Positions 1,139 to 63,615 of a stretch of DNA of 64,000 bases are shown here, in pieces (the first letter of the stretch is position 1; each line of letters opens with the position of its first letter). A program made the position numbers and the translations under genes. The stretch comes from Terramyces sp. JEL0728 (taxonomy: Eukaryota; Chytridiomycota; Chytridiomycetes; Rhizophydiales; Terramycetaceae). Where the stretch lies: positions 1 to 64,000 of the forward strand of contig JADIIU010000006.1 of the NCBI GenBank assembly GCA_027603945.1, written 5' to 3'. The notes under the pieces were generated by a model. That model did not search any database, was not told the origin of the DNA, and saw nothing but the letters and a program-made list of their open reading frames with translations.

Positions 1139-1842
1139 CTACTTTTTATTCAAGATATCATTAATGTGCTCCTTTATCAAATCCAAAGCAACTTCATTAT
1201 CCTCGCCTGCAATTAAAATCAATTACCTCTTGGAATAACTACATCCGCATATTTCTTGCTTGGCAATACAAACTCTTCAAAACTTGGCTTGATAAATTTC
1301 ATGTACTTGTTGATGATTTGGTCTACAGGCTCGCTGCTCCTTTCAATCAACTTGGAAACTCTTGAATCGCTATCCAAATCAACGAATAATTTTAAATCAA
1401 ACAGATCGCGGATTTGCTTGTGGTAAAGAATCAACGATCCCGACACTATGCAAACGTTAGGCTGGATAATATCATGGCCAATACGCTTCTTTGTTTTGAA
1501 ATCATAGACTGGGATTGAAGTTGCGTTTCCATTGCTGATGGATTCCAAGGTCGACAATAATAATGGATAATCTAATGCTTCAGGATGGTCAAAATTGTAT
1601 TCGTTTTGCTTTACCAACTCAAGCTGGGTCTTGTCCAGCTCTTTGTAGAATGATTCAAGGTAGACGATGCTAATTGGAAGTGTCTGAGCAAGTGCTTCGC
1701 TGATTTGTTTCTTTCCCGCAGCAGGTCCGCCAGCAATTGCAATTAGAAATGGTTTATTTTGAGTTGGAGATGGAGACATTTGCATTGATGGATTGAATGA
1801 AAGTCTCTTTTTATCTGGTTTTGGCGAAATGCAGCAATCCAT
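1139..1842 (-). CDS. uridine kinase-like protein, P-loop and lid altered
   Basis: Two exons, complement(1139..1206, 1227..1842), about 227 aa. The intron is gtaattgattttaattgcag (1207..1226, 20 nt); removing it replaces a premature stop with the family ending PRGEDNEVALDLIKEHI. Fold and order follow uridine/cytidine kinases: P-loop strand, SFYK substrate motif, NFDHPEALD, RDLFDLKLFVD, KPSFEEFVLPSKKYADVVIPRG. Three key places differ. The Walker A reads GGPAAGKK, with Lys where Ser/Thr binds Mg-ATP. The catalytic Asp before SFYK is Glu (YLESFYK). The lid that normally carries the RD..RGRD arginines is shortened to IERSSEPVDQII. It may be catalytically weak or a pseudoenzyme. An earlier in-frame ATG at 1887 and a later one near 1785 are alternative starts. 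Confidence 0.8.
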
Positions 1843-1887
1843 AAAAAAGAAAAGGAAAACAGGTGGCGTAATGTTACACTGTGGCAT

Positions 1888-2267
1888 TCAAGACTATTGT
1901 ATCGGTAAAGCTAGTTAACAATAGCTGCTTCAATTTCTAAAAAGTGGTGCTGAATAAGAGAGATACCAAATAATAGAATTGTGCAAGATTCGTGGCATAT
2001 CGTCAACTCATCTCTAGCAATGAAATAAGCTATTATACCATTGCCTGAGATTAAACACCTTGCAGTGTGATCTAATTGTGAGTTGAACACAGAGCTTCCT
2101 TATTAGCCAGACGGAAACAAAGCACATTCGGTATTAGTCAAGACTTTACGTGACGACTAAAGAAACCCTATACCGTATTGCGGTATAGTATTATTAATGC
2201 AGATCTAGTTTAAATGCACGGACCACATTCCGCGGATGGATCACACTGATAAAAATATTTTCCCATT
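1888..2267. other. intergenic, divergent promoters
   Basis: 380 nt between two divergently transcribed genes. I see no coding signal. It holds the CCG-N5-CGG palindrome listed separately and an 8-bp palindrome tccgcgga at 2229..2236, about 32 nt before the next ATG. Confidence 0.6.
2168..2188. promoter_or_regulatory. perfect inverted repeat with CCG-N5-CGG core
   Basis: The arms ctataccg and cggtatag are perfect reverse complements around a tattg spacer, about 80 nt upstream of the SPRY gene start. The core CCG-N5-CGG has the everted-triplet geometry bound by dimeric fungal Zn2Cys6 regulators. That role is inferred; only the symmetry is seen. Confidence 0.35.
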
Positions 2268-3776: not shown

Positions 3777-3805
3777 ATTCGTCAAATTGAAAAACTTTTT
3801 TCAAA

Positions 3806-5054: not shown

Positions 5055-6119
5055 CTATTCATCATCAATCAACTCCATATCAATCAGCTGCTGCTTTACA
5101 TCCTCATTATCTGTATAAAAAAGAAAATACCTGGATCAATCAACAATGCGTTTTGCAGACACTTGGCACCTTCATCAAACGCTTCAATGGCCCTATCATC
5201 ATCATCCACCTCAAGCGAACTTTTAAGCAGCCACGCCTGCGCCAACTAGGATTAGCAACACTTACCAATTGATAGTCTGTCGCCTTTTCTGGGTTATCTA
5301 AAAGCTTGATGCTCTTTTTCACATTTGCTAGCGCTCTCTTTAAATCTGGTTCAAGAGTGTGTGATTCGATGGAAGCCAGGTGAAACAGACAAGTGCCGGT
5401 TACTCTGTTATGTTGATGATGAGTGAATTTCAATGTTGTTTTTAATGTATTGATGACAACGGAAGAGACTTATTAACAAGCGAGTACCTAATCTATGTGA
5501 TTTTTGCAATAGTGCGTGCTCCAAGAAAGCACTGGAAACAGCAAGAGTAAAAGTCGGGGAATCGTTCAGCGCCAATGCTTGTTTGAAAGCGCATTTCGCG
5601 CGATGTACGTTTTCAGCTTCAATCTCATCTTGCTCTTCTCCCTCCTCTTTAAACCTCGTACGAGCTATTTGTAGGTATACTTTCCCAAGCAAAAACCAAC
5701 CCTCGTGGTTCTTTGAATTGTCTTTACTTGATTTTAAATACTTTTCCAATTCATGCTCAGCTTGATGAAACCAATCGCTCACATGCAAAAACAACCCCTG
5801 AATCAACAATATTTACCATGTCGTAGAGACAGTTTGCGTATACCAAATCGTTAATTTCCAATCGTTCAAATTCGTCTACAGCCATTTCAAACAACTTTTG
5901 AACGATGGACGAATGAGTTTGCTTATCAATGTCTTGTTCTGCCAAGGTATGTTTTTCCAGCTCTTCCTTTGCTGCATAATAAATATCGTGGGGAGACATT
6001 TTCGATCCGTCTTGGTTTGTTAAATGGATATCGATTTCACCAACAGCGCATCCTTTGCAATCAGCATCCTCGCATCCCTGCGCATGCTCGACTGTTTTCT
6101 GTTTCTTTTTCACTTGCAT
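5055..6119 (-). CDS. ETT1: ETT1-like TPR protein (enhancer of translation termination)
   Basis: Five exons, complement(5055..5110, 5131..5245, 5266..5468, 5488..5797, 5817..6119), 328 aa. Introns are 19-20 nt: gtaaatattgttgattcag, gtactcgcttgttaataag, gtaagtgttgctaatcctag and gtattttcttttttatacag. Each joins two frames into one helical repeat protein. Features are a Cys-rich start (CEDADCKGC), a central TPR-like region (WFLLGKVYLQIA, AKCAFKQALAL, AIEAFDEGAKCL) and an acidic tail. The layout matches fungal Ett1, a nuclear protein affecting stop-codon readthrough. Identification rests on overall pattern, so the family name is less certain than the gene model. The start codon is 25 nt from the divergent neighbour's ATG. 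Confidence 0.65.
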
Positions 6120-6144
6120 TGCGAAAATTTTTTTCAGAGTCAAA

Positions 6145-6847
6145 ATGACTGAAACTGGAGTTGTAAATGTTTTCAAATATACTGGGACTGCAGGCATATT
6201 GGGTGCGGTTTCAGGCGGAATATATGGTGCTCTGAGGGACGCACCGATTCGAACAACTTCATTTTACATGTTTACGAATTGGACTCTGGTTACACTCCCA
6301 TTCTTTGCAATTAGAGAAACGACACTGTAATTACTGCTAAAATAGTCGCTATTTTCATTCGGAAAATCAGAACGCAGACAGACCAAATATCGCCACTAGA
6401 GATAGGGATGAATTACTGGCTTCAACAATTTCTGGCAGTATCTGTGGAAGCGCTATTGGATACTTGTGGAGACGATCTCCAGCAATTATACCAGGTGCAA
6501 TTATTTATTCTTTAGTGGCCGCTTCTGGCCAATCGGTATTTATAGGGATTAGAAACTGGAGAATTAATATCGCTTTACAGAGGGAAAAACAGCCATTGGA
6601 ACCAATAACGGATCCATTTAGTAAATACAAAGGCGGAGTGTTTATTAACACTGGAGAAATTGAACCAACGGAATTTGATCCTGCACGAAAAGTATTTTCA
6701 TTTGTACAGCTACTGTTTCCAGAATCGCTTTCTTTTTTGAGATATGCAGTTGATTTAGATTATAGGAAAAAGTTGAATTTCAAGATTGAAGTACTGTCGC
6801 AGCAGATTGAAGATTTGAACGGCGAGATTAAACAAAAATCAGTTTGA
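6145..6847 (+). CDS. Tim17/Tim22-like multi-pass membrane protein
   Basis: Two exons, 6145..6326 and 6346..6847, 227 aa. The intron gtaattactgctaaaatag is 19 nt; its removal joins RETTL to RYFHSENQ and brings the downstream GSICGSAIGYLWRR segment into frame. Three or four hydrophobic stretches with Gly/Ala/Ser-rich packing (GTAGILGAVSGGIYGALRDAP; ASTISGSICGSAIGYLW; GAIIYSLVAASGQSVF) recall the Tim17/22/23 fold of mitochondrial inner-membrane proteins. A charged C-terminal tail ends in a short coiled coil (LSQQIEDLNGEIKQ). The exact family member is not recognised. It shares a 25-nt divergent spacer with ETT1. Confidence 0.65.
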
Positions 6848-6897: not shown

Positions 6898-8584
<1,687 letters not shown>

Positions 8585-9305: not shown

Positions 9306-10200
9306 TTATTGAGCACTATTAAAACTAACATGAATATTCGTGTGAGAGAATCGGTCAATCAAATCTTCATATTGCTTCAATTGCTGTTCCATATTGACTT
9401 TACTACAATTAACAACACCTACCGAGCAATTTTAGGAACAGTATCAACGGTCAACGACAATCTTTGATAATCGTTATTCAATTGCTCCCAGTTATCCCTT
9501 AGTCCTTTCAAAATACGTTCACGCTCTTCGTCTGGCAGTACAAGGATTCCTTGTTCTTCAAGTGCAGATTGCTGTTGCTCTTTTTGTTGCTGTGCAAGCG
9601 AATTTGCTAGTTTCAAATCTGCTTCCTTGATTTCTAGAACGCGCTTCTTTATATATTCCGGCGTGCGTCCGTAGTCCTTTTTAGTCAAGAAAGTAGTTGT
9701 TTCCTTTTTAGTGTTCTTTGCCACTACATTAGTTAAAGGTACTGGAGTTGATGTTATCAAGCGCGTTTTGAGCTATAAAATTCTTTGTACATGGTTTGAT
9801 TTCAGCAGATACTTTGGCAGGAACTGGAGCCTTTCTTGTAGCTCTGTCCTTTTCTCCTTTTTCAACTATATTAATTACTATTACCTTCTTTTTTTGGCAC
9901 TCCTTGGCGTTTTTTCAAGAAATTAGAAGGTGCTGGCAAAGGAACTTTGACAGGTCCCATAGATGCAGCCTTTTTAGTAACAGCAACATGCTCCTTTTTC
10001 GCTTGATCAGAGTATTGAGACTTGTAGCGTTTTTCCTTTGGAGGAGGAATATAAACCTCGGGAATTAGAGCGTAAACTGACTCTGAAAATGGGTCTGCTG
10101 GAACCGGAATGGAAGAGCGAGGGTCGTGCTGTTTCTTTTCCAGCTGTGCTTTTAATGCAGTTTTTGTACTGAATTGGATCTTTGGTTTTACTGCAGCCAT
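9306..10200 (-). CDS. ENKUR: enkurin, axonemal doublet inner protein
   Basis: Four exons, complement(9306..9402, 9423..9772, 9813..9865, 9885..10200), 271 aa. N-terminal half: EVYIPPPKEKRYKSQ, then NFLKKRQGVPKKE. C-terminal enkurin domain: YGRTPEYIKKRVLEIKEADL, then LPDEERERILKGLRDNWEQL and a final helix RKVNMEQQLKQYEDLIDRF. Enkurin is a calmodulin-binding protein inside ciliary doublet microtubules, so it marks a flagellated cell. Introns are gtaatagtaattaatatag (19 nt), a 40-nt one at 9773..9812, and gtaggtgttgttaattgtag (20 nt). The 40-nt intron is the only clear exception to the ultra-short rule; within that gap no GT-AG pair of 18-24 nt gives the right phase. Confidence 0.92.
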
Positions 10201-18303: not shown

Positions 18304-20615
18304 TCAAGCCAAGTAAAAATAGACACCGGCATCATTAGGATCTCTTTCCATATAATCCCTTTCAATCAAACTTTCGATCCGCTTTTTGAGGTCGGCAGTT
18401 TCAACAGGAAACTTTAATATTTCAAACAATTCAGTGACGAGAGACTTGAAGCTGCACTTTTTCTTGCCCTTCATAATACGTACAATTGCAGCATCGACTT
18501 GCCATTGGCGATCTTCAAACAGCTGTTCAGTTGTCTTTTGGTTTTCTTGTTCGGTTTCTTGGGCTTGAATAGTGTTAATAACTACTCTGTGTTTCGGATG
18601 TGAAAAGTCTGGGTTGATGCTCCATTGATCAGTCAAAGCTACATCCTTGGTATGCGGATGTTTCTTGAGGAGTTTGATTTTTGCAACTGAAATAGATTGG
18701 AGCGACCTGAATAATTCTTCCTTTGGTAAAGCATTTTGTTCATCAGGGATCAGCAGTGACAGGATTTCGCTGGTAGTGAGTTGAATGTATTTGTTAAACA
18801 ATAAAAGGATGACTGCTTGGTATAGAGATACAATTAAATCCTTGTTTCCGTTCGGGTGGAGATAATGCAATACACAGTGGCCTAACGACATTGGCCACGC
18901 CAGCCGTCTTCCTTTGTACTTGCTAGTGTAGAAGTCATTAAAGACTTTTTGGTCTGTAGCAAACTGTTCGGGAATATTGATAAGGTGGATGGGATAAGTA
19001 GGCCAATAGCTAAAAGTCAATACATGAACATGAAGCTCCATGTCGGATAACCTGCTTGCATACTTGGAGTTCAAGAATGACTTCATTAAATCGGTAGATA
19101 AATCTACATCTTTAAACATCCCTTCCAACTTCTGAGTGAACCCCGCTCCGCATTCTAAATTACGTAAAACTTACCGCTCTTGAGTTTTACAAGCATACTC
19201 TTTTCCGAATCAACGCTCGCACTTTTTCCCAGCAACAATCTCTTTGCCAGATGCTTGCCGTAGAATGCTTCAAATACATCCTTTCCTTGAATCAATCTAA
19301 ATAGAGATAAACATTGATTGAGCTTCTTTTCAACCTCTTCCTCAGTAATTTTACCAGTTTTCAATAGTTTGTCAATGAAAGAAGCAACTAATTCCGCAGG
19401 TTTCATTTTTCTCTTATTGATAAAAGTGCTAAAGGATTCTTTTGAAGCTAGAGCAAAGGCAGTGCTGTCGTCAAAACCGCTAACAATGATAGTATTGATT
19501 TTCTCTTGGAAATCAAGCAAAGTTTGAATCATCTCAGCATCCCTGGTAGTGTCTTGCGCAATTGGGTCTCCAATTTTCTAGGATTAATATAAAATACCTG
19601 AATGTAATCAGCAAAATGGCTCTTCAAGTATTCCAGATTCTTTGTTTCTTCAAATAACGAATAAACGCAATGTAAATCTTCGTAGCAATCGTTTTCAACA
19701 AAGTATTCGAATGAATATGCCAAAATAGTGGATTTGTGAGCATCAATCATGACGGTTTGAAGTGTAGAAATAATGGATTTCTTTGTTGCAGGATTCAAAA
19801 ACCCTTCATCGCCACAAGTATCAGATTCTTGTTTAATCCTTCCCAGGACTACTTTGAGATATTGAGAGACTAATCTTCCGTCCTTCTTTTCAACAATTTC
19901 ATTAATATGGTTTCTGGATTCCTTTTCATAGTAGTTTACTGTTTCTTTAATAAAGATGGATTCAAAGATGGAATAGTAAACCTGCAATTCCATAAACATC
20001 TCTGAAAGCGGCTTCAATAGCGAATTTACTTTGCCGCCATTTCTTTGAATGTTGATTTCGGTAATCATCGCTCCAACCAATGCATCCTTAATGTACATAT
20101 CGCCCAGCACATATTCCTTAAACAATAGCAACCCTGTATCATAAATTGATTTCTTGTCTTTGGAATGCAAGACAAAAGTGCGATCCAAGTACAAAAAGAC
20201 GGATTTCAAGACATTCTAGATTAGATCAAGGTACTATTTGACTAGTGTAATCCTTCCAGTAATTATTAAAGACTTGAAGAACATTATCTTTCATTTCCTG
20301 CCTTAATTGGGCTGCTAATTTCCGTGTGTGTATTTCCATCATATTTCTCAATTTAGAGTATAAATCCTGCTGTTCCTTTAAATGGCAGTAGTTCTCACAG
20401 GCTTGATAGTAAATTTCAAGCGGCAAATTCTCTTGGTTCAGCTGAATTTGAGTGATTGCCTCTTGTAAAGTTTTCCAAGTAAGTTCCAGGTAATTGTCTG
20501 GGGTTTTCGGTTTAACTTTGAATGGCTTGATTGTTAATTTGTGCTTGAGCATCTGACGTTTTGAGGCTGTTTGATCTAGTCCACTATTTGGTCGTTTGGA
20601 TTTCAAAGAGTTCAT
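18304..20615 (-). CDS. CUL4: cullin-4
   Basis: Four exons, complement(18304..19154, 19175..19577, 19598..20215, 20235..20615), 750 aa. Introns of 19, 20 and 20 nt (gtaccttgatctaatctag; gtattttatattaatcctag; gtaagttttacgtaatttag) restore the cullin frame. The N-terminus KLTIKPFKVKPKTPDNYLELTW is the CUL4 signature rather than CUL1 or CUL3. Next come FLYLDRTFVL, QTLLDFQEKINTII, FEAFYGKHLAKRLLLGKSA, and the C-terminal winged helix with the NEDD8 site (VRIMKGKKKCSFKSLV), ending GVYFYLA. It scaffolds CRL4 ubiquitin ligases that pair DDB1-DCAF receptors with an RBX1-bound E2. Confidence 0.95.
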
Positions 20616-24841: not shown

Positions 24842-26981
24842 ATGGCAGCACTCACATATGCGCATGCCGGTGTCTTACCAAACAGACCGCACGATTACTT
24901 GTACGGTACATTCAATTAATCCAGATAGTACTTATACAGTCGCAGGATTGTCTGACCATTTAAAAGCCATGAATAAATCACAAGCGCAACAAGTGATTAT
25001 CCATCCAACTTTTAATAATATGTTTTCAGCACTAAGACACTATCCGCCAATGCGATATCAACTGAAAATTAATCCGTTTCCCAAAGGGTACGGAGAGGAC
25101 AGAAGTCAAGTTGTAGAGCCAACAAACGTAGCTGGACAAAACAGATTCAAATACTTTAGAAGGCCAGTTATGCCCTATTTACCCATATTTGGAGGACAGA
25201 TTATTTATTCTAAACAAAAAACCGTTGCGCATGCTGGCCCTAGTTTGCCTGAACCAATTCAAAAATCAAAAACAGTCGGCACACAAACTAAATATCGGTA
25301 ATTTTTGTTAATTCAGCGAATCTCAAGCTCAAACCGATCCTTATTCGCCAGATTACATCTTCAAGCCAAATGAACCGCCGCCAGAACTATTAGCACTGTC
25401 CTCTTTAAGCCATGGAAATGGATTACCAACAGGGGTTGCAGAATTGGAAATGATTGAACGAGCAAGAGTAAAAAGAATTTGGGAGGCCCAATTACCAGTT
25501 GCAGTTGATCAAGAATCATTCGAACGACGTTTGAAAATGATGGAGGAAATGGAACTGAAAGAATGGCAAGAAAGAGAAAACGAAATTAAAAAGTTGCAAG
25601 ACGAGAGACTGGAAATATTGACTCAAGTTGTGCGAAAGAGAGAAATGGAAAATGATTTGGAAAATGATAAACGTATTGAACGAATCTGGCAAAGAAAGAT
25701 GCAAGAGCGGGATGCTTATTTTGAAAGAATCAACAAGAAGCGAATCAAGAGTAAATATAACTAACCAAGGTCTTCGAAAACTCCAAGAACAAAGAAACAG
25801 AGTTGATCAGAAACTTGAAAAGAGAGATATCATCAATGAGTATGGAAACTTTGGATCAAAAGTGTATGCCCCAAAAGCCAGAGATGGTGTTTTCAAAGAC
25901 AAGGCTTCTACAACACTGCAAATCCGTCTGACAGAAATGGATACTCTCTCGGGACTCATTGAATTGGAAGCAACTCTGCCAAAATCAGTCCTTGAGCCTC
26001 AAATTGAACGAATTGAGACTAAAGAAAGATCGGTTGACGCTAGAAGAGTAATATTTGCTAATGACAGGAACAGCAGTTGAAAGAACAGCTGGAGAACATG
26101 GCAATTAAATTGCAGGAGAGAAAGACAAGGGATCTAATGGACAAGGAGCCTTTGAAATATGCCATCAGGATAGAAAAACCTCCGCCAAGACCGCCAACTC
26201 CATCAATTACTTTCCCGTAATTCATATTAATATAGAACTGAAGAAGAAGAGGAGATGGAAATCGCAGCCCATTTATTACAAAAAGTAATAAACGGCAGAT
26301 TTGTACAAACGCAAATGTATGAATCAAAACAACGGCAACTAAACTTGATTAACGAGTTACGACAGAAACACACATCAGAGATACCTAAATCTACTCAGCC
26401 AGATCCGGCAGACAACAGATTTGAATCCACAATCCAAGCTGAATACATTGGGAAAACTCTCGATTTCTTGACCAAAGAATTAGTGAGAAAGAGAGAGCAA
26501 ATTAGACATCAAGCAATGGTGAAACTAGCTTCTAGAACAAGACTAATTCGTGAAGTTGAAGAATCTGGTAAACGACAACTAGAGTTGCTGGAAAGATCAC
26601 TTGAAACTGAAATTTACAATCAAATTACCAAAGTCAATCAAGATACTATCGATTCTTACTTGCAAGATATTGTAACTAGCAGTATCCAGGATACTAGTAC
26701 GATGCATGCACTTGAGCAAATTAAAATATTTGCTAACCAACCAGTACTTCAAACAGAAATGGTTGTTCAAGATCTGATGACGACATTCTTGATTCCGTAT
26801 ATCGAAAAGACAATTCTCAGAGACAAAAGTAAGTGTTTATTAATTATCAGTTGAATATGAACAGAGCAAAGATCTCATGGCGGCACATGCAAGTATTTGG
26901 TCGAATTTGGAGAGTGTTGAGGGCAAAGTGCCAAGGAATGAATCGCCGGCTGTAGAGGAAGAAAGCGAAGCGGAAATATAA
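24842..26981 (+). CDS. CFAP91: CFAP91 (MAATS1/AAT-1), axonemal radial spoke adaptor
   Basis: Seven exons, 24842..24905, 24925..25297, 25317..25750, 25770..26047, 26068..26216, 26236..26828 and 26851..26981, 673 aa. Introns are 19,19,19,20,19,22 nt (for example gtacattcaattaatccag, gtaatttttgttaattcag). Joined, the protein has the CFAP91 signatures RPHDYLYDSTYTV, KYFRRPVMPYLPIF, VGTQTKYRESQAQTDPYSPDY and LPTGVAELEMIERARVKRIWE, followed by a long charged coiled coil and an acidic tail. CFAP91 anchors radial spoke 2/3 and the calmodulin-spoke complex in motile cilia. Animal CFAP91 is about 100 residues longer. Confidence 0.94.
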
Positions 26982-36761: not shown

Positions 36762-39406
36762 CTACAAATGCAATCGAAGCAAGTTATCGCTACCAGCAGT
36801 TACAAACAGCTTGTACTTTTTCTTTTGCTTATCACTTGTCACAATCCTAGCATTAATAGCGAGTACCATTTGCAACCCACCACTTCAGTTTTGCCAATCT
36901 CCTTGTCGAGAAACTCGAATTTGCCAACATCCTCCATCGCATCGGTATCTCTTTGTTCTAATTTACCACTATGCACTTTCCATATAGAACAACCAGTAAA
37001 ACTCTCTTGCTCTTTGATTACGTTTCCATTTTGATCCATCAATGTTCCAGAATATACAAATGTGCCCTGAGGACTAAAATGTCCTTCAAGTCTTGCATCT
37101 TGTCTGTTGATTCTTGGACTGTACTTTTTAACTAGCGTTTCAGTTGTCAAGTCGAATAGTCGCAGTTGATGGTCAGATGAAATGAGAATAAAGTTATCAA
37201 ACAGCGGATGAGATTCCATATGGAATACTGGGCATTTTCTACATCAATAATCAATTACGTCAATTTAACGTCATCCAGTGGTATTGTATGTAGGAGTTGT
37301 AAGGTGCGGAGCTTGTAAATGCGTAAAGAGTAGGACAATGAAACTACTAATTTTTGTTGTAGTGGATCACTCGGTGCTCCACAGAATACGAATGCAGTTA
37401 TTGGCTCATTGGCATGAACCCCGCTCCTATTTGATCTATCTGAATGTATATTCCATATTTTCAAGCTTTGATCGCCAGAACAAGATATTGCCCTTTGGTT
37501 AACATTGAGTACCTAGTATCGTCACCAGGAATGTAGCCAATTTGGTTGATTATTCTCGTATGGTGCTTTTTCCACCATCTAACTACATTTCCTTCCTTCC
37601 AATTCCATAATTTTACATCAAACTCCATATCTGCACTTACCATCAATTCGTCGAAACTTGGATGGAAATTTAAACAAACTATAGGCTTTACTGTATTATT
37701 TTGGAGAGTGTTTAGGATAGTGTTTTTACCAACATCCCAAACTATTATATTTTTATCCGTTCCTGCTGTTGCTGCTATTATTTGGCCTGCATCACCAACT
37801 GTTTTTACATCCATTACTCTTATCGGTGTAGGAGATGGACCACACGCTTTCGCAATTGCAAAACTTGTATTTTCTTGCTCGTAGCTCAATGGCGGCATTT
37901 GATCCATTCCAAACTTTGATTTTTTTGACATATCCGTACTTAGAGATAGTTTTTGTGAGGGGGCTGTTTCTTGTATTTGTTTCCTTGGAGTAGGGTAGTA
38001 TGTTGGCTCTTCTGGCTCATATTTCACTACTTTTTCCTGTTTAACTATTGTCGAAATCAAGGCTAGTTTGCTGCTATTCACAAAAACTTTTCTTAAAGGT
38101 GTGCAATTGCAATCGCCATTGAAATATTTGGCTAGTGCATATGCAAATAATGGCGGAGAAGCTGATGTTGGATTGGTAACCAGCGATATCGAATCCCAGA
38201 ACTTTTGAATTTCCTTTTCCCAGTTGAATCTTTTATAAATATTATTCTCACTGGGAGATTCTGATAACAAATTATTTAATAAATGGTAATCTATGATTAA
38301 TATGGATTACCCGATGTGAACCAATCTGCTCTTACTCCTCCTTTCTTTTGTTCCTTTTGGACCAGTGGCCAAATTACCATCTTTAATGTACGATCTGCGA
38401 TTTGCACTTGGTCTATTGAATTCAAATACAACAACAAATATTTGCCAAGCACATAAATGAGATCTTCAAATGACGGGATTAATTGGGGATTGTCCAGACT
38501 TGCCATTACTTTCTGGACTAATACTACTCCTTTTCCAAAATCGTTTTTACGTATATAGTATTCCATTTTTAATTTGTTTGAAACTTTATCTGGAATTTGC
38601 GCTTCTATCCGATAATTTTCTGCTGTTTGTTCCATATTACTATCCAATAAATACTTGTAGATTGATATTTTATCAATAGCTTGGTTTGTACTTGAATCGA
38701 GTATCTTTTCAATTTTATTGGAGATTGAAGGTGTTTTATGTCTTGGAGGCTGTTTTCTCCTGGTTCCTGTTGGTGGGGTAGGAGTAAGTTCTACTTGGCG
38801 AGGGGGCGAGCTGTATCGTTCATTCATATGGGTTGGTTCTAATGCTGGAAGCGGTTCGCTGTACCATGGCGGTCTTTCCTTTTTCTTTGGTTTCTCTTCA
38901 ATTTCTTGCTTGTAAGTTTCAGCAGCAGTTGCAATCTCTGATAAATTGCTGGTTTGAATCGCTGTTAAATTGCTGGGTTTACTCTCCTGAACTGTCAGTG
39001 AATTCAACGATTCGTGCGAGGATGATTTTACATTGCTGTTCTTTTTAATTAAATCTTTAATCATATCTATATTTTGCTCTTTGTTATCCCACCATCCACT
39101 CCTCCTTTTCCTTGAGGTTGATTTTGAACCTTGGACAATTGGTTTAACAGGAGTTTCAAACACTATCGAGTTTGATTTCTTTATTGTCGGCAGAGGTTCG
39201 TAATTCTGAGTAGGTTTACGTTCAACCTCAATTTTGTATGTTATTGGTGATTTCATTGTTTTAATTGGAGGCAAGATTGACATTGAACGCGTAAAAGTTT
39301 TGCGAAATTCAAAACTACTGGCATCTTGCGAATTGTGAAGAGTACCATCTAGATCCTCCTGGTATGATTTGAACAATACCGGAAATGAGGTTGCTGCGAA
39401 ATACAT
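36762..39406 (-). CDS. large WD40-repeat protein, 5' exon uncertain
   Basis: At least five exons, complement(36762..36846, 36867..37238, 37259..37492, 37513..38290, 38311..39406+), about 854 aa from the first in-frame ATG. All four introns are 20 nt (for example gtaatccatattaatcatag, gtactcaatgttaaccaaag). The frame stays open upstream of that ATG (LPPHLVGKLQLDAFLYYM) back to an AG at 39461, so a short first exon is missing from my model. The middle third is disordered and basic; residues about 290-440 are helical (a LisH-like KISIYKYLLDSNMEQTAENY). The C-terminal 330 residues form a WD40 propeller: ATAGTDKNIIVWDV, VSADMEFDVKLWNW, ISCSGDQSLKIWNI, VTAGSDNLLRLHL. Family not recognised. Confidence 0.75.
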
Positions 39407-41627: not shown

Positions 41628-42803
<1,176 letters not shown>

Positions 42804-44971: not shown

Positions 44972-45766
44972 TTAGGCAGTACTGTGCACTCCTTCCTTCT
45001 TTAACAACGCATCGATTTGATGATCATTATACGGTTTAAACACAACTTTTCCATTCTCCATTGAAATTGTTGCAAATTCCACTACGGTTAAAGCCAATTA
45101 CATTTTTCATTAGTCAGTGAAGTTCCGTCCATTGTTTTTGCCAAGATTTTAATTGCCAATGATTTCGCTTCATCAAGTGTGCAATCTTCCTTGTAATCAG
45201 TTTTCAACATTGAAGATCCGTTCGATGAATTTGATCCGACGCAAGTTGCTTTCCATCCTGAATAATTGCCAGATGGATCAGAGTGATAGAGTTGGAAGCC
45301 ATGAGTTTCGTCCCATCCTGCAAATAAAAATGATACACCATACGGTCTCATACCACCATATTGGGTGTAACCCTGTTTCAAATTACATAAATCTTGAACC
45401 AGAATTTCCACTGGGATCGGTTCATCGTATCTAAACAAATATCTCTGGGCTTCCAAGCGAGTGTAGTTGATTAGGGAATTTGCATCGCTGGTTAATCCAG
45501 CAACAGCGCAGCAGATGGTTCTACTATAAGCATTAATTACTCGTTGAGTTTGTAAATCTTTTCTCTTGATACATTTTCTAGTAATTTGCTGGTTGTTTTC
45601 TTTTCTGCTGCCAACACAATTCCATCCTTGGCCATTATGCCGATTGCCATGCCGGCATGAGAGATTGCTTCCATCGCATATTCCACTTGATATAGTCGCC
45701 CTGGAGTTAGGTTGGACTACCTTCTGGGGAGAATATTGTGGTTTGTGAGTCGTATCTTCTTGACAT
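44972..45766 (-). CDS. PSMA4: 20S proteasome alpha-3 subunit (PSMA4/Pre9)
   Basis: Four exons, complement(44972..45081, 45102..45520, 45541..45700, 45721..45766), 244 aa. Introns gtagtccaacctaactccag, gtaattaatgcttatagtag and gtaattggctttaaccgtag are 20 nt each. The spliced start [20 protein letters not shown] and [12 protein letters not shown] are the alpha-subunit signature of this member. Then [74 protein letters not shown] and a basic C-terminus. It forms part of the outer ring of the 20S core. Intron 2 has tandem acceptors (tagtag); the second restores the reading frame. Confidence 0.97.
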
Positions 45767-52270: not shown

Positions 52271-54031
52271 TTACTCTGCCTCAAGCTCATCGACTTCTTC
52301 ATTCTCTTTCGGTTCTTCCTTTGTTTGTTCTGCAGGTTCTCTCTTTGTTTCTACTTTGTCATCTTGTTAATCAATATTACCTTCTGGATACTGGCGAGGT
52401 GCTTCATATCTAGGATGGTAAGCAGATATTGGAGGGAGCCTTCTTTCCTTTTCATTGGATTTGTCTGATGGTGTTGGGCTTTTGTATTCGTTAAAGTATT
52501 GGATTGGAGGCAAGTTATTTGTTTCAGTTGGATGTGCATGACCATTTGTAGGAGGTGGTGCTCCTGGGTGGTGTGGAGGGAATAGATTAGGAGAACGAAG
52601 CTGGCTAGAAGAATGGGATGGTGGCGGCGGAGGGTAATAGCTGTAATACGGCTCGGGATAGTAGTAAGGATATGGCGGTCTGGAATAAGGATCATAGTAC
52701 GGTCTTTCATATCTGGGATATGCCGGTCTATCTCTGTAATCATAATTCGGTTTGTAATCGCCGTATGGTGGTTTTGAGACTGGGTAAGGCGGCCTTTCCC
52801 TTGGGTCCGTGTATGGAGGTCGTTCTCTTGGATCAGAATAAGAATATGGACGATCTCTGTCATACGGTGGTCTCTCGTAAGGAGCGCTTGGATCATGATA
52901 TGGCGGTCTAACAGGATCTGCATACGGTGGTCTAACAGGATCTGCATACGGCGGTCTAACAGGATCTGTATAGGGTCTGATTGAGTCAGAATATGGCGGC
53001 CTTGCTGAATCAGTATACGGTGGTCTAGCAGGATCTGTATAGGGTGGTCTGACAGGATCTGTATACGGTGGTCTGTCGTATGGTCTCTCCAATGGCGGTC
53101 GGTCGGCAAATAGTGCTCGCTCATAAGGAGGATATTGCCGCTCCGTTGGCCTTTCAGGATAAAAGTTCTTTGCAGGCTTAGGCTCATCATACATTTTAGA
53201 GTCGTTGGTTGAAGGTTCATTAATCTACAATCAATAATAATTACAGATTCATTTTCAGATTCAGTATCTTTACTCTCATAATTAATATCATAGTTTTGCG
53301 TTCTGAGTCTCTTTTTTGGTGGAGGATCACTGGCAACCTCCTTAAACTTTGTTTTCACAGCACGCGATCGTACTTCCTTTCGTATTCTGATCTTGAGACC
53401 TTGCTCGGCAAATGTTTTTGATAATGGCGTTGATTCTGATATTAAGAGTTGCTATACCTTCCATCCCTGGGAATTTTTTGGCTGGATAAACGTCTATGTT
53501 AGATCAGAATTACTAAAGGAATCTGAAATGATCGAGGTGCAGTAGAGTACTTGACTATCAACTATTTTATACATGGAAAACTACATGAAAAACATTGTAC
53601 TTTTAGCCGGTATGCTCCCTCCATTCTCACCGACAAATCAGGAAAAATGAAATACGAACCATCTCTTCCTTCAGTATCCTTCAAGTTGTAGATTGAGGAA
53701 ACAATAGAGCCAGTTGTAGAACGAGTCTTCCCATCTCGCAGCAGGTGTATTTCTTTCTCAGAGTCCAAACCAAGTATCGAGGCATACATAAAGTAGTACG
53801 GAGCTTTTCCATTTCTAGAGTTAAACCCTTGCTTACCCATCGCTTTCCACGCCTTCCATTTGCTATTGCGTTAGTGAGAACCATACTATGATAGGAGGAG
53901 GGTCAACTGGTCTTCTGTCCACTTTGTTACCATTTGGGTTACCTTTTTCGCCAAATCCACACATCCTCGAGTGTTTGGGTTGCTGTCGCAATGTCAACTT
54001 GTATTGCCTGTTGTAAAATACGGTATTACAT
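52271..54031 (-). CDS. velvet-domain regulator (VelB/VosA-like), 9 exons
   Basis: Complement(52271..52362, 52381..53224, 53245..53435, 53458..53493, 53514..53580, 53601..53814, 53837..53862, 53887..54007, 54030..54031 and possibly more upstream), about 530 aa. Eight introns of 18-24 nt; two exons are only 26 and 36 nt. Spliced, the velvet domain is complete: YKLTLRQQPKHSRMCGFGEK, VDRRPVDPPPI, SIVSSIYNLKDTEGRDGSYF, FPDLSVRMEGAYRLKFSMYK, DSFNVYPAKKFPGMEESTPL, SKTFAEQGLKIRIRKEVRSR. Velvet proteins bind DNA as dimers and couple sporulation to secondary metabolism. The C-terminal half is disordered with RPPYxDPx repeats and an acidic tail. The start is uncertain: an AUG forms across the first junction, but the frame stays open upstream (LLPEKLKPEII). 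Confidence 0.92.
52891..53078 (-). repeat. 24-bp coding repeats (RPPYxDPx)
   Basis: About seven degenerate copies of a 24-bp unit inside the velvet gene encode RPPYTDPA, RPPYTDSA, RPPYADPV and similar. The three RPPYADPV/RPPYHDP copies are nearly identical at DNA level, so the array is still evolving by slippage. Confidence 0.7.
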
Positions 54032-57669: not shown

Positions 57670-57773
57670 ACGTTCTTTCTAAAATTCTGGAAATTTCACC
57701 CCGAAAGAATAAAATTGTATGTACTGTAAACATTTATTACTTTGGGTTTGTGTCATTGAATAATCTACACATT

Positions 57774-60268
57774 CTATCCACTGAATCTTCTACTATGCGT
57801 TTCATCTATATCAGAATCGAGTACCGTTGAGTGTAGGTTAGCAGAGTACGTCTGTTCTTGCAAGCGCCGTTCTGGCGACCATCCTTTTGATGAAAGTGGT
57901 TTCTATTGTTATCAAAAACTTACCTTTTTGGTCACCTTTGGTGCTGGTGCAGCTTCTTCTTGTTCAGCTTCGTTTGGCTTCTTTTGTCCAGGTTTTTTGG
58001 GGTCAGCTTTAGCTGCTGGAGGTGCAGCACCTTTCTTTTGATCTTTACCAACCGCAGCCTGGTGTTAATCCAACTTACTGGGGGTGCAGCGCCAGCTTTT
58101 CCAGGTGGACCGCCAGGCTTCTTTTGCGTATCAACAGTTGTTTTTGTCACTAATTTCAATACTATTTACATTCAAATGTTTCTAATTCTTCTTGAGGATC
58201 TTCTGGACTAAAGAACACATTTGATTGTCGCTGAAATTAAGGCAATCTTACTGTTAACGGCAGTCCCGTTTGTTTTCTCATTTCTTCTGAAATATCTACC
58301 ACTCTTAAAGCTAGAGACATTAGTATTTCATTGCTAAATTAGTTCTAATTACCAAATGACCACACGCAGTTCTGAGCGAATAGAGCTGTCGTCATAGCAG
58401 CTTTCGTTTACCAATTCGTTCAATTCACAGATGCATAAGGTTCTCTGGTCTTCATTTTCAATGTTCACAATGTACTTTGTTATTGACTATTTACTTCATA
58501 TAGTTGGGATACAGACCCGCCCCAAGCCGATTTGACTCCAAGCATGCCATACACCTTATCTTTTAGTGCAAGTATGGATTGATACGTTTCTAAATTATAC
58601 TTTAAATTGAGGTGCTTGTTCAAATCCTCGAATCTTATTGCCACAGTGTTCTTGAATGGCTTGTGAGGTCGCATTTGGGCCGATTGGACCCTTTGCATGA
58701 GCAGCTTGACAGTTTCTTTGCCGACCGTTTCAGCGCTTACTGTTATTAATCAATTACCATCGCTTGTGCAGCAGTTTTTCAATATCATTTCGCTTCTTTA
58801 CCAAAAAGTCCTTTTCGTAAGCGACTCCTTTCAAGGTAACTATGATTTCCTGTGATTCTTTTGATGTCGGGGAAGTAGTTAGCTTCCACATTTCGGTAAA
58901 GACGCCATTTCTGCTTGACTTGAACACAATTGGGAAATCAAAAGCTGTTCCAGGTAGAATTACTCCTTTAATGTAACTGAAAAAGAATGTTTGGTTTCCA
59001 GAGTGAGCATGTATAGTCTTAAATAAAGAGGAGAGTACCTTTAATGGATTATCCCTTTTTACAGGAGCCCATTCAAAGTGGACGGAATATGTTCCTCTGT
59101 TATGAACAGTTAATATCGACGTTGATATGCGGTTCAATTCCACTTCAAAGAACAATCGTTTAGATGAAATTTCCAAATGCATTCCTGGTTTCAAAGCGTT
59201 TTCTGGTTCTACAGCCGGCACCACATCTTCAATTGAAGAATTAAGAGTTTTTTCACTAATGTCAATTAAATCCCACCTCGCTGCCTTGTCCAGACGCTCA
59301 AGGAATGCTTTGGTAAGGCTCATTTCCAATTTGCTCAGATTTTGTCCAACAGCTTCGACATACTCGCCAGTATGCTATTATTAACACCAATTACTCGATA
59401 GAATGGATCTATTACTTTCATTACTTGTCCAAGCTCCTTCTTTTTAATGTCGTGGTAGTTTGGAGAGGTGGGTTTTTTATCCAGCCTTTATGAAATAATA
59501 GTTACTTTGAATTCTTGGACATTAGTCGTTCGATTCTTTGGATTAGTGATATGGTTACTGTCTTGGCCCTCCTGAAGGCAATTGAAACGATAATCCAAGT
59601 AAATCATTTCCAATTTTAATTCCTTCTTTCCAAAAATCAATCTTTTGATCTTCTAGTACTCTTAATGCTTCTTCAATCAATCTTTTTTCTTCTACCACCT
59701 GTCTATATTCGCAAAGCCGCGACATTAGCAAATCTTCTGGTTTCTTGTTAGGTATAGCAAACCTTTCCGGATTTTAACGAGATATGCTGTTCCATTTTAC
59801 TCCAGTCGCTGCAGTGTCGTTCCCAGTTCTTTAACGCATGTTCTTCTCTTATTTCACGATATCTTTGGAAAACATGAAGCTTTTCCAGCCATTCCTTGCG
59901 TTCCTGGGTTTCCCTGTCTTGTGTTTCTTTAATTTCTGGAGCAATTTGCCGAACTGGCTCTTCTGGAATCGGGACTGTTTCCTCTTCCTCTGATTCAGTT
60001 TCTTCTTTATTGTAGAGCTTGTTGAATTCTTGATAATCTTCCAGGTCTCCCAAGATATTGTAGTTTGACACTTTTGTCTTTTTGGTCTTTTGCTTTGGTT
60101 ATATTTAAAGTACTATTGATTTTTGGTAAACGCTCAGTGGAATTACTCTTGACAGCATTTCACCTTGATTACATTTTGTTTACCCGAGTCTGGCGATAGC
60201 GCTTTCGCAACCAAGATTTTAATTGGCTCCTTGTTTTTTGGCAATTCAGGTTCTGTATTTGTAATCAT
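57774..60268 (-). CDS. MYCBPAP: MYCBP-associated protein homologue (MYCBPAP), 15 exons
   Basis: Complement(57774..57902, 57924..58058, 58079..58149, 58170..58230, 58252..58333, 58353..58474, 58495..58735, 58758..59017, 59039..59374, 59395..59485, 59506..59535, 59559..59743, 59763..60092, 60114..60163, 60184..60268), 735 aa. All 14 introns are 19-23 nt. Spliced segments follow the MYCBPAP family: NYNILGDLEDYQEF, KPEDLLMSRLCEYR, FWKEGIKIGNDLLGLSFQLP, DPFYRHTGEYVEAVG, then an MSP/ASH-like Ig domain (LTVHNRGTYSVHFEWAPV, SYIKGVILPGTAFDFPIVF, GVFTEMWKLTTSP) and a Lys/Pro/Ala-rich tail. Members are central-apparatus or sperm-flagellum proteins. The start at 60268 is the best ATG; more exons upstream are possible. 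Confidence 0.88.
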
Positions 60269-60687
60269 TTGAATCCTAATGCAGGGATAACGCGTGAAAG
60301 TCAAATTCAACTCTTTCAAACCCAAGACAAATTCATTAGATTGAAGTGTATAATCATACACAATGCATTTTGCAAATATACTAACGAAACAAATATTCTG
60401 TTACGTTCACAGAATGCGATATGGGAGGGCTTAAAGCCATCCGCCTACTATTTTATCAGGAGATACTTTTATTTCCTGCTACATTTCAACCCCATTGATT
60501 ATTCACAAAATTGCCAGAGAGGAATCTCAAGATCAGGTCTGAAAGTACAGCAGTTCTTTGGCAGAGTTTAATATCCAAACTTATGGTTCTACGAACGTGA
60601 GGTTTGATTGACTTTGCTGTTTCATTGATTTAGAACGGGCTCACCACGTCTTTCAGTTACCTATCTGCTCTGCTTAATTTTTCTTGC
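60269..60687. other. intergenic, divergent promoters
   Basis: 419 nt between MYCBPAP and the GPI-type secreted protein gene. No supported coding or RNA feature. Confidence 0.4.
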
Positions 60688-61320
60688 ATGATAAATATAA
60701 AGTCTCTTTTACTTTCAATAGTATTAGCGCAGACTACTATACTCACTTCCGATTGTCAATCGGCAATTCAAACCCAAAACCAAAATTTACAGTCTTGTGG
60801 TGGCAATGTACTAGCTAACATTGACGCTTCTACAGTTGCAACATCACTGGGTAACTTTTGTTCAGGAAATTGTCGGTCGTCCTTTATAGATTCAATGAAC
60901 AATGTTGCCAAAGTATGCGGCGATCAAATTGTGTATCCACCATTCTCAGCAACTCAGCTTGCAGCACAGAGCAGTTTGGTTTACGATTTTTCCTGTATTA
61001 AGACCGATGACGGAAAGAATTATTGTTTGGCCCAGCAAATTAGTGATATGGCTGCATTGCTCCCCGGCAACACCATAAAGAATTTGAACCAGGTAAACCC
61101 CGGTACATTCTTCAGCAACACTACATTGATTTGTACATCCTGCACAAAGAAGCAATTGTCGTTATTGAACTTGGCGAGTTTGCCTGATCAACTATCCAGC
61201 CAGTTGAGCAACGTCATCAGCTCAATATCAACTATGTGCAACTTCAACATCCCCAAAGGCGATTCATTTGCTGCCAAGCCTGCGCTGCTATTAGGAATTG
61301 CATTGTTGTTTCTTATTTAA
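60688..61320 (+). CDS. secreted Cys-containing protein with probable GPI anchor
   Basis: Intronless, 210 aa. Signal peptide MINIKSLLLSIVLAQTTIL. The mature region has paired cysteines (SDCQSAI, SCGGNVL, FCSGNCRSSF, VCGDQI, SCIKTDDGKNYC, ICTSCTKKQ, MCNFNIP), an arrangement seen in fungal secreted helical domains of unknown function. The C-terminus AAKPALLLGIALLFLI is hydrophobic and ends the protein, consistent with GPI attachment after the preceding small residues (DSFAAK). It probably sits on the cell surface. Confidence 0.8.
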   Translation: MINIKSLLLSIVLAQTTILTSDCQSAIQTQNQNLQSCGGNVLANIDASTVATSLGNFCSGNCRSSFIDSMNNVAKVCGDQIVYPPFSATQLAAQSSLVYDFSCIKTDDGKNYCLAQQISDMAALLPGNTIKNLNQVNPGTFFSNTTLICTSCTKKQLSLLNLASLPDQLSSQLSNVISSISTMCNFNIPKGDSFAAKPALLLGIALLFLI

Positions 61321-61383
61321 TAAATTGCATCATTGCAACATGTTTTGACTGATCCATCCATGGGCCTCTGAAACAATTGGGCT

Positions 61384-62766
61384 TTGATAGGTGCCAATAT
61401 TAATAAAAAACCATTGATATACTTTATGAGCAATCTCTATCAATACCAAAATACCTCACTCGTGGACTTATCCGTCAACCCAAGATCCAACGAGAGGAGA
61501 TATTCAGTCCCAAAACCAGAAGAGCTGCCCAAATCAAATACAACAGATTTGACTATAGTATTGATTCAAGTGTTTATGGCTGAAGCATCAAGAGGGATTA
61601 TTTTACCAACACTTTCGCCGTATATTCAGTCAACAGGAGCCAAATCCCCAGAATTAATCCTCGGGTTGGCAGTATCTGCTTTCTCTGTTGGCAGGCTACT
61701 CAGTGCGTATCCATTTGGGTACTTGGCAGATAAAACAGGTTCATCGAGACTTGCACTTCAAATTGCAACTGTGATTGCAATTATTTCAAATATCATTTTC
61801 GCATTTTCTGGTTTATTAAACTCAAACTATGCCCCATACGCAATCGTCATTTCACGGTTCTTTGTAGGGTTTGGATCTGGTACACTTGGTGTTTCCAGGG
61901 CATTTATGGCAAAAATATCCAGTGCTGCGGAAAGAACGCAATATATCACTTGGAACACGCTTGCGCAATATGCTGGATTCTCGTTAACACCAATCTTGGC
62001 AGAAGGGATTTCACGACTCACTCCACATGCCGACTCGATGACGAAATTGGGATTTATACCCGGATTAACCATAGCTGGACTCTCAATCATCATGTTTCTG
62101 TTGCTATGTACTATGCGGCAAGCCGATGCAGAAAATGCAATCTACGATAAACTTGAAAATGAAAAAGATGTGGAAATGCAAACAGAACAGAAACAAGAAA
62201 CGCAAAAACTAAAGTACGGGTTTATCCTATACTTTATCCTCAACTTTTCTTTGCGCGGAGTGTTGGGGGTTGCAGAAACGTTTGGTGGTACTGAATTCCA
62301 ATCTTACTTTCCCAATGATCCCAACAAAGTCGACAGATCGAGCGAATTCTTCTTTTACTTGGGCCTGGGAGGAATATTCTTTTATTTCGTTATTCCGTCG
62401 CTCGCCAAACTCTTGACTGACTTTTATACCCTTGTACTCGGTATTATATCTTTGGCAGCCGGATCTTTCCTGCTCCTGCCACTTTGTGGAAACAATTTTT
62501 CAATCTTTGTAAATGCAATGGTGCTGATTTGGTCCTTTGGATCACCTATCACCCAAACACTAACGATTTCTACCTATTCGCAAATGATGGGGAGTAAACC
62601 GCAAGGTACAGCAATGGGATGGCTCACTATTGCTGGCAGCTTGGGAAGAATTATATTCCCGATCTTGTGTGGAGTAAATTTAACAGTTGGATCTATCGTA
62701 AATATCGTTACATGCATTCTGTCACTGCTACTGGTAGTTTTATTCAGATTAGTCTACTTTAGATAG
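61384..62766 (+). CDS. MFS transporter, MFSD8/CLN7-like
   Basis: Intronless, 460 aa from the first ATG (a second at 61426 is a good alternative, MSNLYQYQNTSLVDL). About 12 membrane helices. GLAVSAFSVGRLLSAYPFGYLADK is the MFS motif A region; SRFFVGFGSGTLGVSRAFMAK and ERTQYITWNTLAQYAGFSLTP match the endolysosomal MFSD8-type branch. A charged central loop (QKQETQKLKYG) separates the halves. Localisation to a vacuole or lysosome membrane is inferred; substrate unknown. Confidence 0.85.
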   Translation: MIGANINKKPLIYFMSNLYQYQNTSLVDLSVNPRSNERRYSVPKPEELPKSNTTDLTIVLIQVFMAEASRGIILPTLSPYIQSTGAKSPELILGLAVSAFSVGRLLSAYPFGYLADKTGSSRLALQIATVIAIISNIIFAFSGLLNSNYAPYAIVISRFFVGFGSGTLGVSRAFMAKISSAAERTQYITWNTLAQYAGFSLTPILAEGISRLTPHADSMTKLGFIPGLTIAGLSIIMFLLLCTMRQADAENAIYDKLENEKDVEMQTEQKQETQKLKYGFILYFILNFSLRGVLGVAETFGGTEFQSYFPNDPNKVDRSSEFFFYLGLGGIFFYFVIPSLAKLLTDFYTLVLGIISLAAGSFLLLPLCGNNFSIFVNAMVLIWSFGSPITQTLTISTYSQMMGSKPQGTAMGWLTIAGSLGRIIFPILCGVNLTVGSIVNIVTCILSLLLVVLFRLVYFR

Positions 62767-62796
62767 CATCCTGTATAGTCAACAATAAAAACATGT

Positions 62797-63615
62797 CTAC
62801 TCACATTTATTATCATAAAGGATGTCGTAATGGCCAGGTCGGAATAATAGAGACAAGCTGAGAAGAGCATTTCCTTCCATTGGCGAGATTTCATGGTAAT
62901 TGATTGATTCTGTCAGAGTTGTATCCAAGTTGCCAACTCTAATTGTAATACCGAATACATTCGCCATGGCTACTATATGGATTTGGTCCGACTCAACATA
63001 CACTAGGTTAAATCCGAGTACTTGGTTCGACACAAGCAGCAAGGAATGCTTCCAAAGTAGGATGGGCATCCAATACAAACACCTCATACATCTCGCGATC
63101 CTAAATTAACCGCAGGTACTCTTTTCAATAATGCAGCCGTTACTATCCTTAGAAAACAAACAATGGTGTCGCTTAGATACTCGGTGGTAAATATTTCCAT
63201 CAAGTCCTTGTTTGTGGTAACAGCATCGTAGAACGGATCGTAAAAATCTTCCATGATAGACAAGTCATATCCGGTTTGAGAAAGTAAATCTTTAGTTGCT
63301 ACACATTTCTCAACTAGCTTGTTTTTGATTTCTGTGGGTTGATCACGTAATAATTCGCAAAATCGGAATGCAAACGCTCTGTAAAAGCAGTTTCCATCTT
63401 TTTTAATTGTTCGCATCCTGCATCCATTTGATTTGAGATGAATTAGCTTGGAGTGGTATATTGGATCGCCATTCAAGTATTCCTTATTAAACGTCACGTA
63501 CTTGTTCAAGGGCTTCAAACCCGATAACTTCACTCACTAGTGGAGTATGTCCAATCTCCTGATCTTTAATTTGTCGTTCGTATTTCAGGATTTCTTCATC
63601 AGTCGGTCTTTCCAT
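62797..63615 (-). CDS. otubain-type deubiquitinase
   Basis: Four exons, complement(62797..63002, 63022..63100, 63120..63482, 63502..63615), 253 aa. All introns are 19 nt (gtacgtgacgtttaataag; gtacctgcggttaatttag; gtactcggatttaacctag). Peptidase C65: TIKKDGNCFYRAFAFRFCE with the catalytic Asp-Gly-Asn-Cys, ACVEPMYVESDQIHIVAMAN, and RPGHYDILYDN with the catalytic His. The second and third junctions restore LKRDREMYEVFV and CVEPMYVESD. It removes ubiquitin from proteins. Its ATG is 17 nt from the divergent neighbour's ATG, the tightest spacing in the window. Confidence 0.93.

Follow-up and report, generated by a model that had tools for sequence, protein, structure and literature searches.

Predicted GT-AG introns of about 20 nucleotides on every sampled contig of the chytrid Terramyces sp. 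JEL0728

The genes of the chytrid Terramyces sp. JEL0728 (Rhizophydiales, Chytridiomycota) are very probably interrupted by GT-AG spliceosomal introns that are nearly all 19 to 22 nucleotides (nt) long and that occur on all 13 of the contigs sampled. The window analyzed here is a stretch of 64,000 nt, positions 1 to 64,000 of contig C6, in a genome of 15,016,339 bases and 231 contigs; statements about the genome as a whole rest on a non-random sample of 314 kb, made up of 124 kb from C6 and another 190 kb from 12 further contigs. The cullin, CFAP91, and MYCBPAP genes of the window have deposited Terramyces sp. JEL0728 proteins as their best matches, and the next relatives in these match lists include Boothiomyces, Globomyces, and Kappamyces. 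A preliminary description of the window had proposed that a flagellated fungus has ultra-short GT-AG introns throughout its genome, and this is supported, with CFAP91, MYCBPAP, and enkurin genes in the window and a chytrid as its source. The ultra-short introns themselves, its main observation, are confirmed by a map of the spacers between splice motifs, by splicing guided by homology alone, and by our own gene models.

The spacer map uses no gene models. In the window, the spacing from GTA to a YTRAY followed by AG occurs 32 times at 19 nt and 28 times at 20 nt, compared with 5.4 and 6.8 under a third-order Markov null, and in the 190 kb of 12 other contigs the same motifs give 73, 98, and 45 pairs at 19, 20, and 21 nt, over a background of roughly 18 (8 to 34) at the remaining lengths between 12 and 200 nt. 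Resolved into two spacers over the 314 kb, the signal forms a block in which 13 to 14 intron nt precede the branch A and 3 to 4 nt lie between this A and the AG; its cells hold 98, 89, 56, and 39 pairs versus 4.1 per far cell. Both parts of the sample, C6 and the 12 other contigs, show the block, and it exceeds the far-cell control on 13 of 13 contigs, least on C9, by 2 pairs in 10 kb. The raw counts give no sign of dependence between the two spacers (p 0.31). Extrapolated from the 308 excess motif pairs in this non-random sample of 314 kb, the 15 Mb of the genome would hold an estimated 15,000 introns, roughly.

Spliced protein-to-DNA alignment, which knows only GT, AG, and a flat range of 10 to 200 nt, was applied to relatives of five window genes (cullin-4, CFAP91, MYCBPAP, SRP54, and PSMA4) and placed 35 distinct introns, which include competing calls for the same site. 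Of these, 30 are 19 to 23 nt long (8, 14, 5, 2, and 1 of 19, 20, 21, 22, and 23 nt, respectively). The same three cullin introns are recovered from four of four relatives and the first five of CFAP91 from five of five, and the example introns of the preliminary description in SRP54, PSMA4, and CFAP91 reappear at their positions. When the terminal dinucleotides were varied as a control (9 of 14 relatives), the total score was highest for GT-AG, at 18418, and 59 of its 66 jumps were 18 to 24 nt long, whereas eight other pairs scored 14775 to 16701 with 6 to 26 jumps in that range. The individual placements are as follows.

24906..24924, + strand: CFAP91 intron 1 (gene 24842-26981), 19 nt; five of five relatives, also in the deposited model
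25298..25316, + strand: CFAP91 intron 2, 19 nt; five of five relatives, deposited model same
25751..25769, + strand: CFAP91 intron 3, 19 nt; five of five relatives
26048..26067, + strand: CFAP91 intron 4, 20 nt; five of five relatives, deposited model same
26217..26235, + strand: CFAP91 intron 5, 19 nt; five of five relatives, deposited model same
26829..26850, + strand: CFAP91 intron 6, 22 nt; three of five relatives, deposited model same
20216..20234, - strand: cullin-4 intron 1, 19 nt; four of four relatives, deposited model 58 nt (20216-20273)
19578..19597, - strand: cullin-4 intron 2, 20 nt; four of four relatives, deposited model same
19155..19174, - strand: cullin-4 intron 3, 20 nt; four of four relatives, deposited model same
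8221..8240, - strand: SRP54 intron near the P-loop codons, 20 nt; homology-only splicing to PDB 2j37_W, first 441 residues, colinear alignment
7527..7546, - strand: SRP54 intron 2, 20 nt; homology-only splicing, colinear alignment
45701..45720, - strand: PSMA4 intron 1, 20 nt; homology-only splicing to PDB 7qve_j, colinear alignment
45521..45540, - strand: PSMA4 intron 2, 20 nt; homology-only splicing, colinear alignment
45082..45101, - strand: PSMA4 intron 3, 20 nt; homology-only splicing, colinear alignment
60164..60183, - strand: MYCBPAP intron 1 (gene 57737-60268), 20 nt; three of three relatives, deposited model one 80-nt intron (60093-60172)
60093..60113, - strand: MYCBPAP intron 2, 21 nt, uncertain; one of three relatives, 54 nt (60093-60146) from two Boothiomyces models
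59744..59762, - strand: MYCBPAP intron, 19 nt; three of three relatives, deposited model same
59486..59558, - strand: MYCBPAP, either one 73-nt intron or introns of 23 nt (59536-59558) and 20 nt (59486-59505) around a 30-nt exon
59375..59394, - strand: MYCBPAP intron, 20 nt; two of three relatives, 41 nt (59375-59415) from the third, deposited model 20 nt
59256..59276, - strand: MYCBPAP intron, 21 nt, coding in the deposited model; two of three relatives, extra residues absent from three of three
59018..59038, - strand: MYCBPAP intron, 21 nt, coding in the deposited model; two of three relatives, extra residues absent from three of three
58736..58757, - strand: MYCBPAP intron, 22 nt; three of three relatives, deposited model same
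58475..58494, - strand: MYCBPAP intron, 20 nt; three of three relatives, deposited model same
58334..58352, - strand: MYCBPAP intron, 19 nt; three of three relatives, deposited model same
58231..58251, - strand: MYCBPAP intron, 21 nt; two of three relatives, 69 nt in the third, deposited model 21 nt
58150..58169, - strand: MYCBPAP intron, 20 nt; one of three relatives, 47 nt (58162-58208) from another, deposited model 20 nt
58059..58078, - strand: MYCBPAP intron, 20 nt; two of three relatives, deposited model same
57903..57923, - strand: MYCBPAP intron, 21 nt; two of three relatives, deposited model same
57806..57824, - strand: MYCBPAP last intron, 19 nt, absent from the deposited model; one of three relatives, regains a C-terminus common with P0243

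Deposited proteins of three genes map exactly to the window with 20 introns, of which 16 are 19 to 22 nt long, so that ultra-short introns already stand in public gene models. The remaining four measure 58, 97, 80, and 73 nt. The first two become 19 nt in four of four and five of five relatives, regaining residues that the relatives share; the deposited CFAP91 intron 3 (97 nt, 25673-25769) removes a stretch found in all five aligned relatives. The 80-nt MYCBPAP intron is replaced by a 20-nt intron (three of three relatives) together with one of 21 nt (one of three) or 54 nt (two of three). At 59486-59558, two of three relatives, both Boothiomyces, agree with the deposited 73 nt, and the split form comes from the third, Globomyces; the enclosed 30-nt exon could be an optional micro-exon. 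These comparisons hold a warning for annotation: each of the three deposited models checked has one or more long introns that the relatives reduce to 19 or 20 nt, and the MYCBPAP model retains two 21-nt introns as coding.

Our own models of the window, low-scoring ones included, were built with intron length limited to 16 to 26 nt, and the test of length therefore rests on the other analyses. Their overall extent is:

1139..63615, no strand: 33 models, 24 with introns, 77 introns, 75 of them 18 to 24 nt long

By length there are 3 introns of 18 nt, 19 of 19, 32 of 20, 11 of 21, 5 of 22, 4 of 23, and 1 of 24, the remaining two being 17 and 26 nt. The preliminary description had about 80 introns in 26 genes, all but one of them 18 to 24 nt long. 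Its 14 introns in MYCBPAP become 16 in our model, part of them uncertain. Gene-finder versions that permit long introns served as tests only and are not the source of these counts; in early versions exons jumped across gaps and long calls formed an even background. With coding potential alone and a flat prior of 10 to 150 nt, 45 of 153 introns fall at 18 to 24 nt for GT[AG]..AG, compared with 1 to 6 for five other dinucleotide pairs, and the other 108 calls are scattered over all lengths. Once signals are added to the flat prior, 166 of 457 introns fall in this range, with 44, 73, and 26 at 19, 20, and 21 nt.

Several observations weigh against this account. Five of the 35 homology-only calls are longer (41, 47, 54, 69, and 73 nt), and the 73-nt call is also the deposited choice; 291 of the 457 signal-based gene-finder calls lie outside 18 to 24 nt, and no single length above 24 nt has more than 8 of them. 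Branch positions are deduced from the motif, and 27 of 297 introns lack any of its listed forms. A genome search found no U1 RNA, even at E 10 or by pattern, and no uninterrupted U6 RNA, though U2 and U5 are clear.

The longer calls bear on the alternative that survives best, a mixed population in which an ultra-short majority coexists with a real minority of introns of 40 to 150 nt, for example with another branch motif. The longer MYCBPAP calls, the four longer deposited introns, and the many scattered flat-prior calls from both gene finders favor such a minority; we nevertheless consider it unlikely. All five longer homology calls lie in MYCBPAP and derive from two Boothiomyces models, which may be wrong themselves, and the deposited 58- and 97-nt introns shrink to 19 nt in every relative aligned. 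The longer gene-finder calls have the even spread expected of false ones and are read as such. For motif pairs with 3 to 4 nt from A to AG and larger donor distances in the 314 kb, with the expectation taken from the level at 300 to 399 nt, the numbers observed at donor distances of 15 to 19, 20 to 25, 26 to 39, and 40 to 59 nt are 66, 58, 161, and 236 (expected, 59, 71, 166, and 237), and those at 60 to 99, 100 to 149, 150 to 199, and 200 to 299 nt are 452, 620, 598, and 1181 (expected, 474, 592, 592, and 1184). There is thus no excess of the common motif with donors 20 to 400 nt upstream of the branch relative to the 300-to-399 level, in a test that covers common-motif introns and assumes few introns of 300 to 400 nt. 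Against a second baseline, in which the donor distances are kept and the branch-to-AG distance differs, the observed numbers are higher (e.g., 236 versus 174); this surplus keeps nearly the same proportion over 26 to 400 bases, as would be expected if real acceptors meet chance donors.

The signals of the predicted introns were read from 297 introns of 18 to 24 nt in models scoring above 20. The donor reads AG|GTAATT, with G 0.49 and A 0.32 at exon position -1, A 0.89 at +3, A 0.50, T 0.23, and C 0.20 at +4, T 0.46 and G 0.21 at +5, and T 0.55 at +6. The preliminary description of donors as mostly GTAA or GTAC holds for the first form, and GTAT is as common as GTAC. The usual donor prefers G at +5. 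This preference is gone here, since +5 is T rich and G reaches only 0.17 to 0.21 in the two sets (in the annotation-free set, T 0.50 and G 0.17), and GTAAGT opens 4.4% of introns. The branch motifs are mainly TTAAT, CTAAT, TTAAC, CTAAC, and TTGAT, with YTRAY or the listed near variants in 270 of 297, and the base before the AG is T (0.59) or C (0.24). Introns have a G+C content of 0.31, versus 0.41 for coding sequence, and stand at about two per kb of the latter. Upstream of the branch there is a T-rich part (T 0.39 to 0.51 at +5 to +9 in the annotation-free set), and no clear pyrimidine signal for U2AF was seen in the downstream exon in the 314-kb spacer-map set. In Paramecium, introns of 3n length have an excess of in-frame stops; no such excess is seen here (38 of 65 versus 138 of 232; Fisher p 0.89), and translational surveillance as a source of one was rejected on this ground.

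With frame-restoring GT..AG ends, a branch motif near the 3' end, and U2, U5, U2AF, and SF1 encoded in the genome, the introns look like the ordinary GT-AG, U2-dependent type at an extreme length; in the 314-kb samples nearly all are below 30 nt and within a narrow range. U2 small nuclear RNA (snRNA) would pair weakly with YTRAY, and the branch A would attack the donor to form a lariat loop of about 14 to 15 nt with a tail of 5 to 6 nt; the AG 3 to 4 nt past the branch A, in a final (C/T)AG, would then be joined. A pyrimidine tract cannot be accommodated between branch and AG, and U2AF65 must therefore act elsewhere, perhaps on the exon, at the T-rich stretch that precedes the branch, or by some other route. 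Early factors that overlap on the intron would have to bind in turn rather than together, or act on exons. Because few bases are fixed, length itself, in the form of the two short spacers, is probably a recognition signal. In the part of the literature drawn on here, this was already suggested for nucleomorphs (PMC5014332).

A stronger proposal holds that the entire intron set lies at the physical minimum of the spliceosome, set by two independent rulers of 13 to 14 and 3 to 4 nt, with U1 donor recognition loosened or lost; we regard this combination as improbable, and its last element as weakly supported. The components encoded in the genome bear on it. The preliminary description had suggested that spliceosomal proteins may be altered and had singled out U2AF, SF1, and the U1 and U2 proteins for examination; U2AF65, U2AF35, and SF1 are present and ordinary-looking by sequence. 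U2 RNA is encoded by one gene (140 bits) with the canonical branch-binding GUAGUA, and U5 RNA is clear (86 bits); two equal-scoring tRNA matches lie downstream of the U5 gene (L040 1874-1955 and 2303-2384). U2AF65 matches come in pieces, the best at 252 bits, below the family's curated cutoff of 310; the spliced model begins arginine rich, contains five predicted introns of 19 to 24 nt, and shows by eye RNA recognition motifs (RRMs) and a W-containing stretch resembling the one that binds U2AF35. SF1 has 55% identity in two exon matches that lie 19 nt apart, and there are matches for U2AF35, LUC7, and a U1C-like zinc finger (40% identity). For SMU1, the genome search did not find the N-terminal part. 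In the window, a DEAH-box helicase fragment (46448-48227, + strand) has spliceosomal helicases as best matches, with 6i3o, a "putative pre-mRNA splicing factor" (2e-133), and DHX8 (3e-131) ahead of PRP43 (9e-123) and PRP16.

Whether U1 takes part in donor recognition at all can be asked in the light of these components. If donor pairing fell directly to U6 and U5, the U1 snRNP having disappeared or changed too far to take part, the missing U1 RNA, the lack of any genome match to the U1-70K N-terminal family, and the absent +5 G preference would find an explanation. We judge this improbable. The searches for U1 RNA and U1-70K also yielded nothing in control genomes, so that absence is not implied. 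The U1C-like and LUC7 matches stand against the loss of U1, as do two candidate U1-70K exons with RRM matches: C1:202902-203186 (query 80-183 of human U1-70K, 31%, E 4e-4) and C10:78185-78343 (query 87-139, 40% over 53 residues, E 0.003), both of which begin before the RRM, as U1-70K would. The donor still favors exon -1 G, +3 A, and +4 A, as expected with U1 pairing. Exon -1 G and +5 G do not compensate for each other (p 1.0), which would have been a sign of such pairing, and an association of exon -1 G with +4 A (p 0.04, the lowest of five tests) is unconvincing.

U6 is essential and must exist, and it was likewise missed; searches or assembly can thus miss real genes, and the U1 and U6 misses prove nothing. 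Divergence, split genes, or assembly gaps could explain them. In some fungi U6 genes carry introns, and here U6 is perhaps split by ultra-short introns of 20 nt, thereby escaping the searches. Rfam matches to U6 on C199 and C111 (27 bits against a cutoff of 44; E 6e-4 and 8e-4) were rejected because they score below the gathering cutoff and have no AGC after ACAGAGA; no reading frame of at least 50 codons lies over them. We note that these weak matches arise from a stretch of at least 3.1 kb repeated at 98.9% identity on C199 (L005) and C111 (L006).

Two further explanations of the segments have next to no standing compared with that of GT-AG introns removed by the spliceosome. Removal by other means, as excised DNA elements or by ribosome bypass, draws on the difficulty of fitting very short introns into a spliceosome and on the removal of short DNA elements by ciliates, and it has a negligible chance of being right, given GT-AG ends, YTRAY, U2, U5, U2AF, and SF1 and the presence of the segments in the assembled genome. 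Assembly or sequencing indels, or pseudogene frameshifts that resemble introns, are practically excluded. An insertion of 19 or 20 nt does disrupt the reading frame, just like an error, but chance indels would not have a common donor, branch, and AG with both spacers fixed, nor would they bring back the alignment to four of four or five of five relatives precisely from GT to AG.

Other genes of the window carry introns of the same size in our own models, among them the velvet gene, for which the model has eight introns, the number given in the preliminary description.

52271..53964, - strand: velvet-domain gene, 8 predicted introns of 18 to 24 nt; Pfam Velvet 7.1e-35 on the spliced protein
9306..10200, - strand: enkurin gene, 3 predicted introns of 19, 19, and 20 nt
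36762..39283, - strand: WD40 gene, 6 predicted introns of 20 to 21 nt
5055..6197, - strand: gene without a Pfam match, 4 predicted introns of 19 to 20 nt

A long intron-free model on the - strand (27351-29126) has, by eye, a secreted-like protein start and a metallopeptidase-like HEYTH motif.

Among the matches listed from the open-license literature, with most subscription papers outside it, there is no report of ultra-short introns in chytrids or other fungi. A fungus, possibly a culturable one, brings such introns near the organisms in which splicing is best understood, and it would let structural and biochemical work ask how 20 bases accommodate U1, SF1, U2AF, and U2 and by which factor each spacer is set. 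Terramyces is, we presume, free-living. The comparisons that follow are confined to the parts of the cited reports drawn on here. One is with chlorarachniophyte nucleomorph introns, the species being, as we take it, Bigelowiella natans. These introns are 18 to 21 nt long and number more than 800 in approximately 300 genes (PMC10245619), and they resemble those of Terramyces in narrow range and intron richness; the Bigelowiella nucleomorph is the relic endosymbiont nucleus of a green alga, whereas Terramyces has the 15-Mb nuclear genome of a fungus. The mikrocytids Mikrocytos and Paramikrocytos are parasites with 224 uniform, conserved introns of 16 to 17 nt and a very reduced spliceosome, and U1 RNA is not among the snRNAs that this part of the report gives as found (PMC10245619); Terramyces differs in the surplus of about 308 motif pairs counted over 314 kb and in the presence of U2AF and SF1. 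A reduced parasitic or endosymbiont genome is true of mikrocytids and nucleomorphs and, in the same account, not of heterotrichs, whose introns it puts at 15 to 16 nt (PMC10245619). The genome-wide tiny introns of Paramecium and Nyctotherus, around 25 bp (PMC5014332), are longer than those of Terramyces, in which the stop excess of Paramecium is also not seen.

In the heterotrich Stentor coeruleus, introns are 15 to 16 nt long with the branch A at position 10 to 11 (10 in most) and a 5-nt tail; U2AF1, U2AF2, and SF1 are kept, U1 and U6 RNAs are found, and 18% of genes have introns (PMC9505925). Stentor and Terramyces are alike in having one or two fixed lengths, a fixed place for the branch A, and retained U2AF and SF1, and they differ in the position of the branch A, about 14 to 15 in Terramyces, and in the share of genes with introns, 24 of 33 window models. 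The 3' geometry of these two distant lineages is nearly equal and the loop differs, which may be read as a hard limit on the 3' side of the intron and a looser one on the 5' side. For human B complexes, about 52 nt is reckoned to be needed from donor to branch, with Smu1 and RED helping at short distances (PMC6692369), whereas in Terramyces 13 to 14 nt precede the branch A; with introns of about 19 to 22 nt and signals at fixed spacings, the machinery would work far below the presumed human need. The Terramyces intron set is probably an independent case of genome-wide ultra-short introns, with a geometry and a donor of its own.

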